55,657 nt of DNA, from positions 1 through 55,657 of the forward strand of contig JAIYDC010000080.1 in NCBI GenBank assembly GCA_027487685.1. The letters are read 5' to 3'. Source of the stretch: Pseudomonadota bacterium. Lineage in GTDB: Bacteria > Bdellovibrionota > Bacteriovoracia > Bacteriovoracales > Bacteriovoracaceae. Both the position numbers and the translations under genes were made by a program. The notes beneath the pieces are model-generated. The model did no database searches, was not told the origin of the DNA, and saw only the letters and a list, made by a program, of their open reading frames with translations. Of this stretch, positions 43,506 to 50,268 are shown piece after piece (the stretch's first letter is position 1; each line of letters begins with the position of its first letter).

Positions 43506-45176
43506 ATGAAAAAAGTGTCCTTCCTGGGGGCGATCTCACTCACCATCATCTCCACTGCGGCCCTGGCGAAAATGCCTATTGCCCCTATACCCTTTGTTCC
43601 TGGCGAGGTGCTGGTCAAAGTAAGACCTGGGCTTTCAGCGCGCCTCCTGGCAAAAAAGTCTCTTTTTGGTGCTGAGGTAAAAGAAGAGCTGAAGCTCATG
43701 GCAGGGACATACTTACTCCTCAAGAGTACGACTAAGTCCACCCAGGCACTGGCCCAGGATCTTCAAAAATTCCCCGAAGTCGCATTTGCGGAGCCCAATT
43801 TCATCTACACTAGCTTCGGAGCACCTGCGGGCGCACCCTTAGATCCTTTATTTGATAAACTATGGGGTCTTCGCAACACCGGGGCCAATGAACCTGACCG
43901 GACTGGTGGGACAACGTCTACCCCGGGCGTCCTCGGTGCGGATGTTGACGCTCAGAAGGCCTGGGAGCTGGCCCGAGGTTCAAAGAAGATTGTCGTCGCC
44001 GTCATTGATACGGGAATCGACTATAACCATCCCGACCTTCGGAGCAACATGTGGGTTAATCCGGGCGAGATCGCCGGCAATAACATCGATGACGATCAAA
44101 ACGGCTACGTCGATGACATTCACGGTTGGAATGCTGCCAGTAGAAATGGTGATCCCATGGACGGTAACGCTCACGGAACTCACTGCGCTGGAACCATCGG
44201 CGCCGAACACGACAACGGCCTAGGTGTCGCCGGAGTGATGCCGCAGGTGTCTCTTATGGGTGTAAAGTTTCTTTCTGATACTGGTTCTGGGACCCTCGCT
44301 GATGCAGTGGTGGCGATAAACTACGCTACCCGAATGAACGTCGACGTGATGTCAAATTCGTGGGGAGGTGGAGGATATTCCCAGGCCCTCTTCGACGCCA
44401 TCAGCGCCGCTAAAGAAAAAGGAATCATCTTTGTCGCCGCGGCCGGGAACGAAAGCAATAATAACGATGGCCGTGCTTCATTCCCAGCGAGCTATCAAAT
44501 CGACAACGTCATCAGTGTTGCCTCTCATACCGCCCAGGATGTTCTTTCTTCATTTTCAAATTTTGGCCGCCGCACTGTTCACGTCGCGGCCCCAGGCACC
44601 AATATTCTTTCTACAGTCCCGAATGCTGAATACAAGGTTCTGTCCGGGACCTCCATGGCCACACCCCACGTCTCAGGCCTCGTAGGACTTCTCTTGGCAC
44701 AGACGGGCCGCAGGCCAGTACTCGAGGTGCGAGAGCGCCTCATGGCAACGACTGTCCCAGTTGCTGCTTATCGACGGACAACTGCCTCACAGGGCCGGGT
44801 GAATGCGTATAACTTTATCACCGACACCCGCTTGCCACGTCAAGGACCCCTTGAGAGCGCCTGGCGGGTCGAGGCACTTGCCGAGCCTTTTGTAACCGCC
44901 CATCCATATGTGGAGAACACTCGTCTGGCAAAGATCTACCGCTTTCCCGGAGCGAAGTACGTTAAGCTCATCATCGAGCGCTACGACGTTGAAAATGGAT
45001 ACGACTTTCTGACATTGAAAGACGGCAACGGAGCGACGATCGAGCGTCTTACTGGTGTGGGCCAGCGGTATGAGACTGACTTTACAGAATCAGATACGGT
45101 GACTGTGGAGTTTACATCTGACTCGACCCAGAACCGGTGGGGAGTAGAGATACGTGAAGTGAAGGTCGTGTACTAA
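43506..45176 (+). CDS. Secreted subtilisin-family protease with CUB-like domain
   Basis: Exported S8 endopeptidase of 556 residues. It has a signal peptide (about 1-21), an I9-like propeptide (about 28-103, PGEVLVKVRPG to AEPNFIY), and a catalytic domain with Asp168 (AVIDTGIDYNHPDL), His223 (NAHGTHCAGT), oxyanion Asn315 (AAGNES) and Ser383 (SGTSMATPHVSG). Insertions with Asp/Asn (NIDDDQNGYVDD) suggest calcium sites. Residues about 445-556 form a CUB-like beta-sandwich (IERYDVENGYDFLTLKDGNG, VEFTSDST). The ribosome site GAGG precedes the ATG. Likely part of the cell's extracellular digestion set. Confidence 0.93.
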   Translation: MKKVSFLGAISLTIISTAALAKMPIAPIPFVPGEVLVKVRPGLSARLLAKKSLFGAEVKEELKLMAGTYLLLKSTTKSTQALAQDLQKFPEVAFAEPNFIYTSFGAPAGAPLDPLFDKLWGLRNTGANEPDRTGGTTSTPGVLGADVDAQKAWELARGSKKIVVAVIDTGIDYNHPDLRSNMWVNPGEIAGNNIDDDQNGYVDDIHGWNAASRNGDPMDGNAHGTHCAGTIGAEHDNGLGVAGVMPQVSLMGVKFLSDTGSGTLADAVVAINYATRMNVDVMSNSWGGGGYSQALFDAISAAKEKGIIFVAAAGNESNNNDGRASFPASYQIDNVISVASHTAQDVLSSFSNFGRRTVHVAAPGTNILSTVPNAEYKVLSGTSMATPHVSGLVGLLLAQTGRRPVLEVRERLMATTVPVAAYRRTTASQGRVNAYNFITDTRLPRQGPLESAWRVEALAEPFVTAHPYVENTRLAKIYRFPGAKYVKLIIERYDVENGYDFLTLKDGNGATIERLTGVGQRYETDFTESDTVTVEFTSDSTQNRWGVEIREVKVVY

Positions 45177-45616: not shown

Positions 45617-47920
45617 ATGTCACTTAAGCCCTTGAATATTAAATCAAAACTTCTCCCTTCTCCCACTTCAGAACCCCGTTATTCAATCATAATTAAAGAT
45701 GCAAAACATAAAGAAATTAAACTCGCCCATCCCAAGGCCGTGCGCTCACTGATTGCTCTGATGGATCTCGCTGCTGTTAATGGAGGGGCCGCTTGTCACT
45801 GGGGTGGGCCATCGGCGATGACAGAGACTTGGACCGCCCTCCACGGAATCATGTTTAAAGAAAAGAATTGGTTTGAAAAATATAATTTTGTGAATGACAT
45901 CGGACACGCGGAGAACGGAATCTACGCGCTCCGAACTGTCCTGGGTTACGGAGACTTAACACTTGAGGGCCTGAGCGGCTTTCGGTCGATGGATTCAAAG
46001 CTCACTGGTCATGGCGAGTCTCACCTCTACCCAGAAGGTGTTCTCCTTTCGAACGGTCCCCTTGGATCGGCCTTTCCTCAAGCTCAGGGATTGGCGGTTG
46101 CCGATAAGCTCTCTGGTTCAAATCGTGTGACCATCGTTTCTCTCTCCGACGGCGCCTCATTTGAGGGTGAGGCAAAGGAAGCTTTTGCGGCCATCCCTGG
46201 TCTGGCCCTGAAGGGGATGACGAATCCATTCGTTCTTCTAATTTCGGATAACAATACTAAGCTCGGCGGACGAATCGACAAAGATGCTTTTTCCATGCAG
46301 CCAACCTATGAGACCCTCGCGACTCAAGGCTGGGAAGTGATCAAGGTCGACAACGGTCATGATCTCGAAAAAATGTACCAAGTCCTCGAGAAGGCCATCA
46401 AAACGGCCGAGAAAAACGCCACAAAGCCAGTGTGCGTTTGGATCAAAACCATCAAAGGCCACGGGGTGAAGGCAACCGCTGATTCCGCCTCAGGTGGTCA
46501 CGGCTTTCCACTCAAACCATTTGATGAGGCGATCCACGCTTTCCTGAAAGAGATCTGGAGCGATGAAGAAGTTCCGACCGAGCTCACGAGCTGGGCGAAG
46601 AAGCTTGCGGAAAAACCAGCTAAGACTGAAAATGCCTCTGGGCCTAAGAAAGATAAAATTCAAGTCGGCGTTGCTAAGGCGCTCTCAAAAGCAGCAAAGG
46701 ACGGCTATCCTGTTTTCTCAGTAACCTCCGACCTTCAGGGCTCGACCGGTGTCAAGGCCTTCCATTCTGAATTCCCGGACCGCTTCGTTGACGTTGGTGT
46801 GGCCGAGTCGAACATGGTCTCCATGGCCGTGGGCCTTTCAAAGGCGGGTTTCATCCCTGTCGTTGACACCTTTGCGGCGTTTGGAGTTACTAAGGGGAAT
46901 CTTCCGCTGATCATGGGTTCCCTCTCCCAAGCACCGATCATCGCAGTCTTTTCGCACACGGGCTTCCAGGACGCCGCCGACGGTGCTTCTCACCAGTCAC
47001 TCACGTACCTCGCGGCCCTTGCGAGCATCCCGCATGTTAATCTCGTTAACGTTGCCTCTGCTCGCGAAGCTGAGGAGTATGTTTATCAAGCGGTGAAAAA
47101 GATCGCCGCGGCCCGAGAGGCAGGCCAGGATGGTGAGTCCTACGTCTTCTTCGTCGGTCGGGAAAACTTCGCGCTCGAAGTGGCGCCGGAGCTTGCTTAT
47201 CAGCTTCACAAGCCTCAGCGTTTGCGCGAAGGGGCTGACGTCACGATCGTGGTCTCCGGCTCACTTGCGGCCAAAGGTCTTGAGGCCGCCGATGCTCTCG
47301 CTCGTCGAGGGATTGACGCCACAGTCATTAATCATAGTTTCGTGAATCAGTCGGACTTCGCCCAGATTGGTAACTGGGTCGCCGAGGGTGGTTCAAAAGT
47401 TATTACCGTCGAGGACCACCAGCTGATCGGTGGCATGGGGGCCCAGCTTGTGCATCAGCTGAAGCTCCTTGGTTTGGAGTTTGATGTCGTTTCCCTTGCG
47501 GTGCGTGGGGAGTTTGGTCAGAGTGCCTACTCGGCCGACGAACTGTACGCTAAGCACCATCTGGATTCTCATGCTATTATCGAAGCCGCTGTAAGGCTCC
47601 AGGGCAAGGGAAGTTTCATGAATTTTGATGCCGAAGTTTTGATGACGAAGTGGAAAGAGGTCTCCGCCGAGGCCAAGCGTAAGTGGGACTCGATCTCCGA
47701 AAAGGACCTAGATAAGGTGAAGGGAAATGCGGTTGCGATGGTCTCTTTGATCCAGGAAAAGTTTGGGATCTCCCGGGAAGACGCCGCAAAAAAAGTGGAA
47801 GAACTTTTGGCGCGATACCCGAAGGAAGAAATAAAAGCTCGAGTTGGGGAGACGGCGATGAAGGCCCTCGGCACAGCGAACACTATCTTTGACCAGGTTA
47901 AGTCGAAGATTAAAAAGTAA
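45617..47920 (+). CDS. tkt: Transketolase with an added C-terminal CsbD-like domain
   Basis: Thiamine-diphosphate enzyme linking glycolysis and the pentose-phosphate pathway by moving two-carbon units. ATG 45617 has AGGCGG at good spacing. The first 660 or so residues cover the transketolase domains: GHGESHLYPEGVLLSNGPLG, SLSDGASFEGEAKEAF (ThDP/Mg region), then VTSDLQGSTGVK and GVAESNMVSMAVGL of the pyrimidine domain. Residues about 676-731 then read KWKEVSAEAKRKWDSIS, EKDLDKVKGN, EKFGISREDAAKKVEELL, the pattern of a CsbD/YjbJ stress-protein domain, followed by a basic helical tail. Normal transketolases end near residue 660. Confidence 0.88.
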   Translation: MSLKPLNIKSKLLPSPTSEPRYSIIIKDAKHKEIKLAHPKAVRSLIALMDLAAVNGGAACHWGGPSAMTETWTALHGIMFKEKNWFEKYNFVNDIGHAENGIYALRTVLGYGDLTLEGLSGFRSMDSKLTGHGESHLYPEGVLLSNGPLGSAFPQAQGLAVADKLSGSNRVTIVSLSDGASFEGEAKEAFAAIPGLALKGMTNPFVLLISDNNTKLGGRIDKDAFSMQPTYETLATQGWEVIKVDNGHDLEKMYQVLEKAIKTAEKNATKPVCVWIKTIKGHGVKATADSASGGHGFPLKPFDEAIHAFLKEIWSDEEVPTELTSWAKKLAEKPAKTENASGPKKDKIQVGVAKALSKAAKDGYPVFSVTSDLQGSTGVKAFHSEFPDRFVDVGVAESNMVSMAVGLSKAGFIPVVDTFAAFGVTKGNLPLIMGSLSQAPIIAVFSHTGFQDAADGASHQSLTYLAALASIPHVNLVNVASAREAEEYVYQAVKKIAAAREAGQDGESYVFFVGRENFALEVAPELAYQLHKPQRLREGADVTIVVSGSLAAKGLEAADALARRGIDATVINHSFVNQSDFAQIGNWVAEGGSKVITVEDHQLIGGMGAQLVHQLKLLGLEFDVVSLAVRGEFGQSAYSADELYAKHHLDSHAIIEAAVRLQGKGSFMNFDAEVLMTKWKEVSAEAKRKWDSISEKDLDKVKGNAVAMVSLIQEKFGISREDAAKKVEELLARYPKEEIKARVGETAMKALGTANTIFDQVKSKIKK

Positions 47921-48028
47921 GTTACTACTATTTGAAAGAGTGACGAAAGGCAGTTCTATTTTCTTTCTTTTCGGGAGCACCGAAGTCTGGATGAAAAGAG
48001 TGCTGTAAAATCCGGGACTCTTTGAGTT

Positions 48029-48556
48029 TTAACTGCACCAGCCAGCGATGATGATGCGTTCTCCTGCTGTGACCTGATGGATCTTGTGTTCAAATCCATA
48101 AGGGCCTGTGAGAAAGAGAATCATGTCACCAAAGGGTGGAGTCGCAATCTCTAAGAAAGCTTCCTGACCCTTGCGCCTCACGCCGAGGTGACCTCCTGAA
48201 ATGCTCTCTGGGTTCTCAGTAAGGGAGAGAGAAAAGGCAAAGACTCGTGAGCCATCATCGTGCCAGATTCCGTCTTCCTCCCAATCATTCTGCGCATTCC
48301 TGAGACTGATGATGAATTCAATGCCAGAAAAGTCATGGTAGTTGCGGAGGTGATTGAAGAGACCTCCGCCATGATCAGTGAGGAGTCGGATTTGCTGGTC
48401 GAGTTGATCCCAGTGCCGATTGCGGACCGCGCTTAGGATTTCATTTCCAAGAGGAAAAGACGACATATGGAAACCGGCAGAAAAGAGTGCGGGATTTTTT
48501 AACATAGAACCGCATCTTGTCAGGCAGCTTTTATCTTTGTCAAACGCCAAGTCCAT
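48029..48556 (-). CDS. Fe(II)/2-oxoglutarate dioxygenase (prolyl-4-hydroxylase type)
   Basis: Small predicted hydroxylase of 175 residues. The iron triad is His99-x-Asp101 (IWHDDGSR) and His160 (KIHQVTAGERIII), with Arg167 as the 2-oxoglutarate anchor. The strand SISGGHLGVRR matches the P4Hc core. The start is uncertain: ATG 48556 has no good ribosome site, and ATG 48502 (MLKNPALF) would also keep all catalytic residues. It is a different subfamily from the PhyH-type enzyme at 7032. The substrate, free or protein-bound, is unknown. Confidence 0.75.
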   Translation of the reverse strand: MDLAFDKDKSCLTRCGSMLKNPALFSAGFHMSSFPLGNEILSAVRNRHWDQLDQQIRLLTDHGGGLFNHLRNYHDFSGIEFIISLRNAQNDWEEDGIWHDDGSRVFAFSLSLTENPESISGGHLGVRRKGQEAFLEIATPPFGDMILFLTGPYGFEHKIHQVTAGERIIIAGWCS

Positions 48557-49674: not shown

Positions 49675-50268
49675 TTATTGCTGAATACAGTAGAGCCGGC
49701 GAGTCGTGTTATTGCATGTGACGTCACTAAAATAAATCCATTCATAATCTATCACATCTGATAATCCGTAGATTGCGAGAGCTCCTGATGAGTTGCTACT
49801 CCAACCACTGCAATTTTCTAACCGAGGAACTCCGTTAACTGAAAGACCTGTGAACACGTTGAATCGTGTTGTTGTTACTGGATTAATTAAATCCTGCGGT
49901 AACAATCCATTAGAATCAGAAGTCTCGATAAGTGTGCCGTCTGTTCTCGTATATTGTGTGTTTGGCTTGATGACCCAGTCAATCTGGGCACCTGCGGTTC
50001 CATCGCGTTGACTATCTACACCAATATAGGCCTTATAGGTTCCATCTCCTGGATTATTGGCATCAGAAGCACATCGTGAGTCTGCTCCGGCGACTCCACC
50101 AAGATTCCCATCTGAGCTTGCTGCTGTAACAAAGATCTTGCACGGGTCACATGAATCACTATCACCCCCGGTAGTGTCTAAATCGATACCTGAAACTCCT
50201 CCATCTTCACAGCTACATAAAAGGACTAATAAAATAAGTATTAATATTTTTTTAGAATTTATAACCAT
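49675..50268 (-). CDS. DUF1554-type lipoprotein (C-type-lectin-like)
   Basis: A 197-residue lipoprotein with lipobox LLCSCED (Cys about 20). The mature part matches DUF1554, best known from Leptospira surface proteins: KIFVTAASSDGNLGGVAGAD and SRCASDANNPGDGTYKAYI near the N-terminus, then LENCSGWSSNSSGALAIYG and CNNTTRRLYCIQQ at the end. The cysteine pattern supports two disulfides. It is co-directional with, and overlaps by 17 bp, the 50252 barrel gene; both are A+T-rich, suggesting joint acquisition. It probably sits on the cell surface and binds carbohydrate or host/prey ligands (inferred). Confidence 0.8.
   Translation of the reverse strand: MVINSKKILILILLVLLCSCEDGGVSGIDLDTTGGDSDSCDPCKIFVTAASSDGNLGGVAGADSRCASDANNPGDGTYKAYIGVDSQRDGTAGAQIDWVIKPNTQYTRTDGTLIETSDSNGLLPQDLINPVTTTRFNVFTGLSVNGVPRLENCSGWSSNSSGALAIYGLSDVIDYEWIYFSDVTCNNTTRRLYCIQQ

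Follow-up and report, generated by a model that had tools for sequence, protein, structure and literature searches.

A transketolase fused to a divergent CsbD-like domain in Bacteriovoracaceae, with a candidate internal start for the free domain

The stretch of DNA analyzed here (the window, 55,657 nucleotides) comes from the Bacteriovoracaceae, a lineage of predatory-type freshwater bacteria, and contains at 45617–47920 (+) a single open frame of 767 codons, from an ATG at 45617 to a TAA at 47920. The preliminary description of this DNA divided the product into a transketolase of about 660 residues and about 100 extra residues, and this division holds, with a core reaching to about residue 657 followed by a tail of about 100 residues. 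The features of the gene are as follows.

45617..47587 (+): transketolase core, residues 1–657, from the Pfam N, pyr and C domains; its C-terminal end is the same as in unfused orthologues
47588..47617 (+): linker, residues 658–667, from a codon alignment of 14 fused genes; hypervariable save for [K/R]-G at 664–665
47606..47613 (+): internal Shine-Dalgarno (SD)-like site AAGGGAAG, codons 664–666, conserved and homologous to the ribosome-binding site (RBS) of the separate csbD-like gene in sister species
47618..47620 (+): candidate internal start ATG (Met668) of a predicted free CsbD-like protein of ~100 amino acids, from the codon alignment
47618..47815 (+): CsbD-like domain, residues 668–733, from profile and PDB comparisons and a low-confidence fold comparison
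47822..47917 (+): extra C-terminal helix, residues 736–767, from the alignment, the hhalign span and a predicted helix at 736–766 (low confidence)

The Transketolase_N, pyr and C domains are recognized by Pfam at residues 45–654, scoring 94, 90.4, and 67.6 bits against cut-offs of 22, 27, and 25.9, and the stop codon of unfused orthologues falls at residues 656–658. Catalytic-type residues, located via alignment to 3KOM and 6YAJ (H61, H97, H132, D178, N212, H295, E397, D455, and H459), are invariant in 16 orthologues, and the core contains the ThDP cofactor-binding motif D178–N212 together with the active-site His and Glu. As judged from its sequence, the fused protein thus shares all three domains and the ThDP and active-site residues with transketolase (EC 2.2.1.1), and it differs from the ordinary enzyme in bearing the CsbD-like tail. 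Its closest sequence matches are 3KOM and, from the split transketolase 6YAJ, the C-terminal chain, and it is distant from the canonical bacterial transketolase equivalog models (241.8 bits, cut-off 488).

The surroundings of the gene follow a conserved order, namely an S8 peptidase, L28 (opposite strand), tkt, csbD-like, cysK, and a 2OG-Fe(II) oxygenase (opposite strand). The next gene is cysK in most fused and split species, and the operon of the sister clade is tkt–csbD-like–cysK. In the window, an S8 family subtilase with a fervidolysin-like prodomain is encoded at 43506–45176 (+), a gene whose place before tkt is conserved throughout the genus and also in related genera, and a small 2OG-Fe(II) oxygenase-like protein (48029–48556, −; PF13640, 35.5 bits) is conserved downstream in convergent orientation. 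There is no cysK at 47921–48028, where the close relative G006 has one (L031:5327–6229), and other contigs of the window genome carry more distant cysteine-synthase-like genes (29–41% identity). Further along, a putative lipoprotein with DUF1554 (PF07588, 95 bits) is encoded at 49675–50268 (−).

A CsbD pattern had been pointed out at residues 676–731; the sequence there is confirmed, and profile and PDB comparisons place the resemblance beyond chance. The check proposed for it, a search of the tail with PF05532, fails when this model is used alone (14.7 of the 40 bits of the cut-off, E 0.029), whereas profile comparisons do recover the homology. The NCBIfam model NF007748 (PRK10428), which we take to be the E. 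coli YjbJ family, matches the tail with E 5.3e-7. A profile of 20 tails has as its top matches in the PDB both CsbD structures (1YWW, E 5.8e-10; 1RYK, E 6.9e-6), and the whole 767-residue protein as a single query also leads to 1YWW (E 4.4e-8). With hhalign, the tails align with 12 genuine CsbD paralogues from the same phylum, every one of which matches PF05532, at 98.9% probability over 68 columns (E 2.5e-17). A free-standing orthologue of the tail, L048, itself reaches 43.2 bits with PF05532, above the cut-off of 40, over profile positions 2–53 of 53. The AlphaFold model of the tail, made with 12 sequences, has a pLDDT of 47 alone and of about 36–62 within the full chain, and Foldseek with this low-confidence model (pLDDT 47) places 1RYK first (prob 1.00, E 0.05) and 1YWW second (0.92, E 0.3), an order that is consistent with a CsbD fold but no proof of it. 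It is extremely improbable that a generic amphipathic helix unrelated to CsbD extends the enzyme and resembles that family by chance. The window protein does lie under the PF05532 cut-off and several orthologues are not reported with that model, but the profile-profile match to genuine CsbD proteins, the first places of 1YWW and 1RYK in the PDB both by sequence and by the fold of the low-confidence model, and the free-standing orthologue above the cut-off all argue against a chance resemblance. On these comparisons the tail is a divergent CsbD homologue, and we use this term rather than classify it as a CsbD member because the window tail scores under the PF05532 cut-off.

The CsbD family (PF05532; E. 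coli YjbJ, 1RYK; P. aeruginosa PA4738, 1YWW) consists of proteins of ~60 residues, aligned end to end with the tail, and the two have in common the pattern K-W-K-E-x...W-x-x-[IL]-[ST]-x-x-[DE]-[LI]...G-N...Q-x-[KR]-[FY]-G-x-[SK]-x-[DE]-x-A. In contrast to the family, the tail has other residues in place of the K-G glycine and the Y-G tyrosine, is fused to an enzyme, carries an additional C-terminal helix of ~30 residues, and has had its first helix deleted in three lineages. The additional helix is common to the separate csbD-like gene and is unmatched in ordinary CsbD paralogues. A PF05532 scan of the window genome at E ≤ 0.001 gave zero matches, the tail included, and single-model scans would therefore miss such tails. 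Among the matches listed for PF05532 in 369 genomes of the phylum, none was to a frame longer than 250 amino acids, and no further CsbD sequence was confirmed in viral contigs, which were scanned to deepen the alignment.

Our survey comprised 26 genomes of the genus, and the named relatives are Bacteriovoracaceae metagenome genomes, some of them labelled Bacteriovorax stolpii. The search for further long transketolases in related genomes, suggested in the preliminary description, found the intact fusion in 15 species of the genus (15/26 genomes, G023 counted in). An assembly artefact or a frameshift was considered and rejected, since the fusion recurs with its frame intact in these 15; the fusion is real. 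Counting G023 as a split case was likewise rejected, the apparent split arising only from contig breaks inside the gene. Two further genomes (G004 and G010) have a fused gene with a shortened tail that lacks the first CsbD helix, and G079, from genus g37, is also fused with a shortened tail. These three shortened tails (L017, L024, L103) still have the last helix and the later half of the CsbD domain, and any function of the attached tail in these forms should therefore lie in those parts. In the split arrangement, seen in six of the 26 (G005, G014, G016, G019, G021, and G024), the tail is encoded by a gene of its own immediately after tkt, while in one (G025) the tail gene lies away from tkt and adjoins cysK (L054, G025:C50:10500–15500), indicating that the free gene can persist without a transketolase neighbor. 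The remaining two (G001 and G007) are unassignable because of contig ends. Other family members examined have no tail at tkt (L025–L030, L044, L045, and L047).

In an enzyme tree that includes G079, the split clade, which is monophyletic (100/99), is nested among fused lineages, and the branch leading to both genera is supported at 97/97. Without G079, the fused genes except that of G004 form a modestly supported group (83/81), and the order is less certain. Because the split clade nests among fused lineages once G079 is included, an ancestral fusion followed by one later fission is the shortest account, and we take the ancestral fusion and derived fission to be the most parsimonious order. 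The reverse order, in which two separate genes fused recently, was rejected as the most parsimonious one when the fused gene of G079 was added. We also rejected the idea that the three shortened tails arose only once, the AU test giving p 0.036 against a single clade, and G010 at least probably lost the first helix independently.

Purifying selection acts on the tail as it does on the core, with pN/pS of 0.16–0.26 in the tail and 0.18 in the core, against 0.53 in the linker; the extra C-terminal helix has 0.26. Synonymous sites are near saturation (pS 0.7–0.9), which makes a fixed third codon position informative, and such a position occurs at Gly665 in the junction. Residues 656–663 are hypervariable, with [K/R]-G and M-N retained behind them, and fused junctions read AAA/AGA/AAG GGA NNN NNN ATG AAT. 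At split junctions the tkt stop codon overlaps or adjoins the csbD-like RBS (TAAGGA...ATG, or TAAACATAAGGACCGTTTGTG), as in L018 (CTT AAA TAA GGA ATG GTT TTA TGA TGA AT) and L015 (CTT TAA ACA TAA GGA CCG TTT GTG). The candidate start codon sits where the separate gene begins in split species, and is ATG in 13 and TTG in one of the 14 aligned fused genes, and ATG in a fifteenth too. In all, an in-frame internal SD with ATG or TTG is retained in 14/15 intact fusions. The exception is L011, an intact fusion without the SD, and in L013 the ATG has become TTG (Leu), still a start codon, behind a strengthened SD.

Several counts single out this junction from the rest of the gene. The Gly665 codon is GGA in 10/10 non-redundant genes with Gly there, the only such column among 54 Gly columns (mean 0.28). 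Codons 664–665 are all-purine in 13/13 [KR]G genes, compared with 36/87 [KR]G dipeptides elsewhere in these genes, and the product of codon-usage odds for this is 10^-6.8 (10 non-redundant genes). A properly spaced 4-nt SD match precedes the start at 13/14 junctions, vs. 63/525 other in-frame start-like codons (Fisher P 4e-11, uncorrected for kinship); tests in different species are not independent. A good RBS and start is present in 0/3 shortened tails vs. 14/15 intact ones (P 0.005), a loss that is partly mechanical because the deletions lie nearby. When synonymous codons are shuffled with amino acids fixed, 4-mers number 13 vs. 9.95 expected (P 0.012) and 5-mers 7 vs. 6.4 expected (not significant), a mild result because K-G itself encodes AAGG. 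The SD of the window gene (AAGGGAAG) is modest at −5.7 kcal/mol, equalled by 7 of the 37 other start-like codons of the gene. Given the weak synonymous test, the case rests on the fixed GGA, the TTG swap, the homology with the start in split species, and the loss in shortened tails. Since the fused gene retains the RBS and start codon of the separate gene, the free domain is probably made too, and these observations strongly suggest a functional internal start and point to dual products, TKT-CsbD and a free CsbD-like protein.

Taken together, we hypothesize a gene within a gene, a reading that we hold with about even confidence, in which an ancestral fusion yields a full-length and an internally started product whose domains associate. 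In the ancestor of the genus and a sister genus, tkt and the csbD-like gene behind it would have merged into one frame. Ribosomes starting at 45617 would then make transketolase with a CsbD-like tail, and those starting from the internal RBS/ATG (47606–47620) would make the CsbD-like protein of ~100 amino acids alone, equivalent to what the free-standing gene encodes in the clade that later reverted to two genes. If the fission is indeed derived, the internal start became the sole start of the new gene at once, which fits a start that was already in use. Copies of this small helical domain, whether free or fused, might associate with each other, and this association might tether some or all of the transketolase in a small assembly, or protect it in starved or resting cells.

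A less probable account, albeit the most serious rival, is that only the full-length product is made and that the tail acts where it is attached, for example in solubility, dimer stability, or placement, with the SD/ATG a relic or a by-product of K/R-G-x-x-M-N. Such a plain fusion would be consistent with the lack of any stop or frameshift in 15 fused species, the purifying selection on the tail, the weakness of the synonymous-null test with amino acids fixed, and the fact that L011 without the SD and the shortened forms without the SD and/or ATG are all still fused. However, it leaves unexplained why GGA is fixed in 10/10 genes despite near-saturated synonymous sites, why the Met to TTG (Leu) change of L013 preserves a start codon behind a strengthened SD, and why later fission left a separate, conserved gene that begins at this very start.

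It is also conceivable, although quite unlikely in our view, that the free CsbD-like protein is the working product and that the read-through is a tolerated stop loss in a tight operon, adding nothing to transketolase. The persistence of the separate gene in the split clade, and in G025 off tkt and beside cysK, would agree with this, as would a linker that is free to vary. Yet every intact fusion keeps 10–11 in-frame, stop-free linker codons, though one substitution would restore a stop, and G004, G010, and G079 are still fused although their tails no longer have a first CsbD helix or a usable start, which suggests that the attached tail matters there.

Returning to the gene within a gene, we infer that the role of the tail may be co-assembly with, or protection of, transketolase. 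In its fullest form, TKT-CsbD and free CsbD from one gene would be joined by their CsbD domains in a transketolase assembly that is either regulated or protective, a proposal that we regard as unlikely, if worth stating. Comparable arrangements are known, as in RpnL/RpnS (PMC10327210), Cas8b/Cas11b (PMC11899642), and YscQ with its short variant (PMC4295842) an internal in-frame start gives the C-terminal domain alone, and the short form then acts on the long one by binding, completing, or inhibiting it (PMC10327210, PMC11899642, PMC4295842). The association proposed here is drawn by analogy with them. In tkt-csbD there is likewise one frame with an internal start and a separate, here predicted, C-terminal product. 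However, initiation is experimental in these three systems and inferred from sequence conservation in tkt-csbD, whose host protein, unlike theirs, is an enzyme of central metabolism. The preliminary description knew of no earlier account of such a fusion, and among the open-licence papers searched none of those on CsbD together with transketolase appears to describe one.

CsbD/YjbJ proteins are widespread and stress-induced, and to our knowledge they have no known molecular role. A fusion that is kept genus-wide and was once resolved into two genes of one operon points naturally to a partner of CsbD, and co-assembly, if true, would provide the first concrete molecular partner for the family, in a partnership kept through fusion, first-helix deletion, and fission. 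It also seems that an independent gene took over the internal start of the fused gene as its own, which would be a case of gene birth by fission. Besides the fused tail, the window genome has one ordinary CsbD-like paralogue (G000:C35:5282–5461). The ordinary CsbD paralogues of the genus (L061, L070, L071, and L072) often have long, charged, and probably disordered C-terminal tails, many of which end in N-A-R-H.
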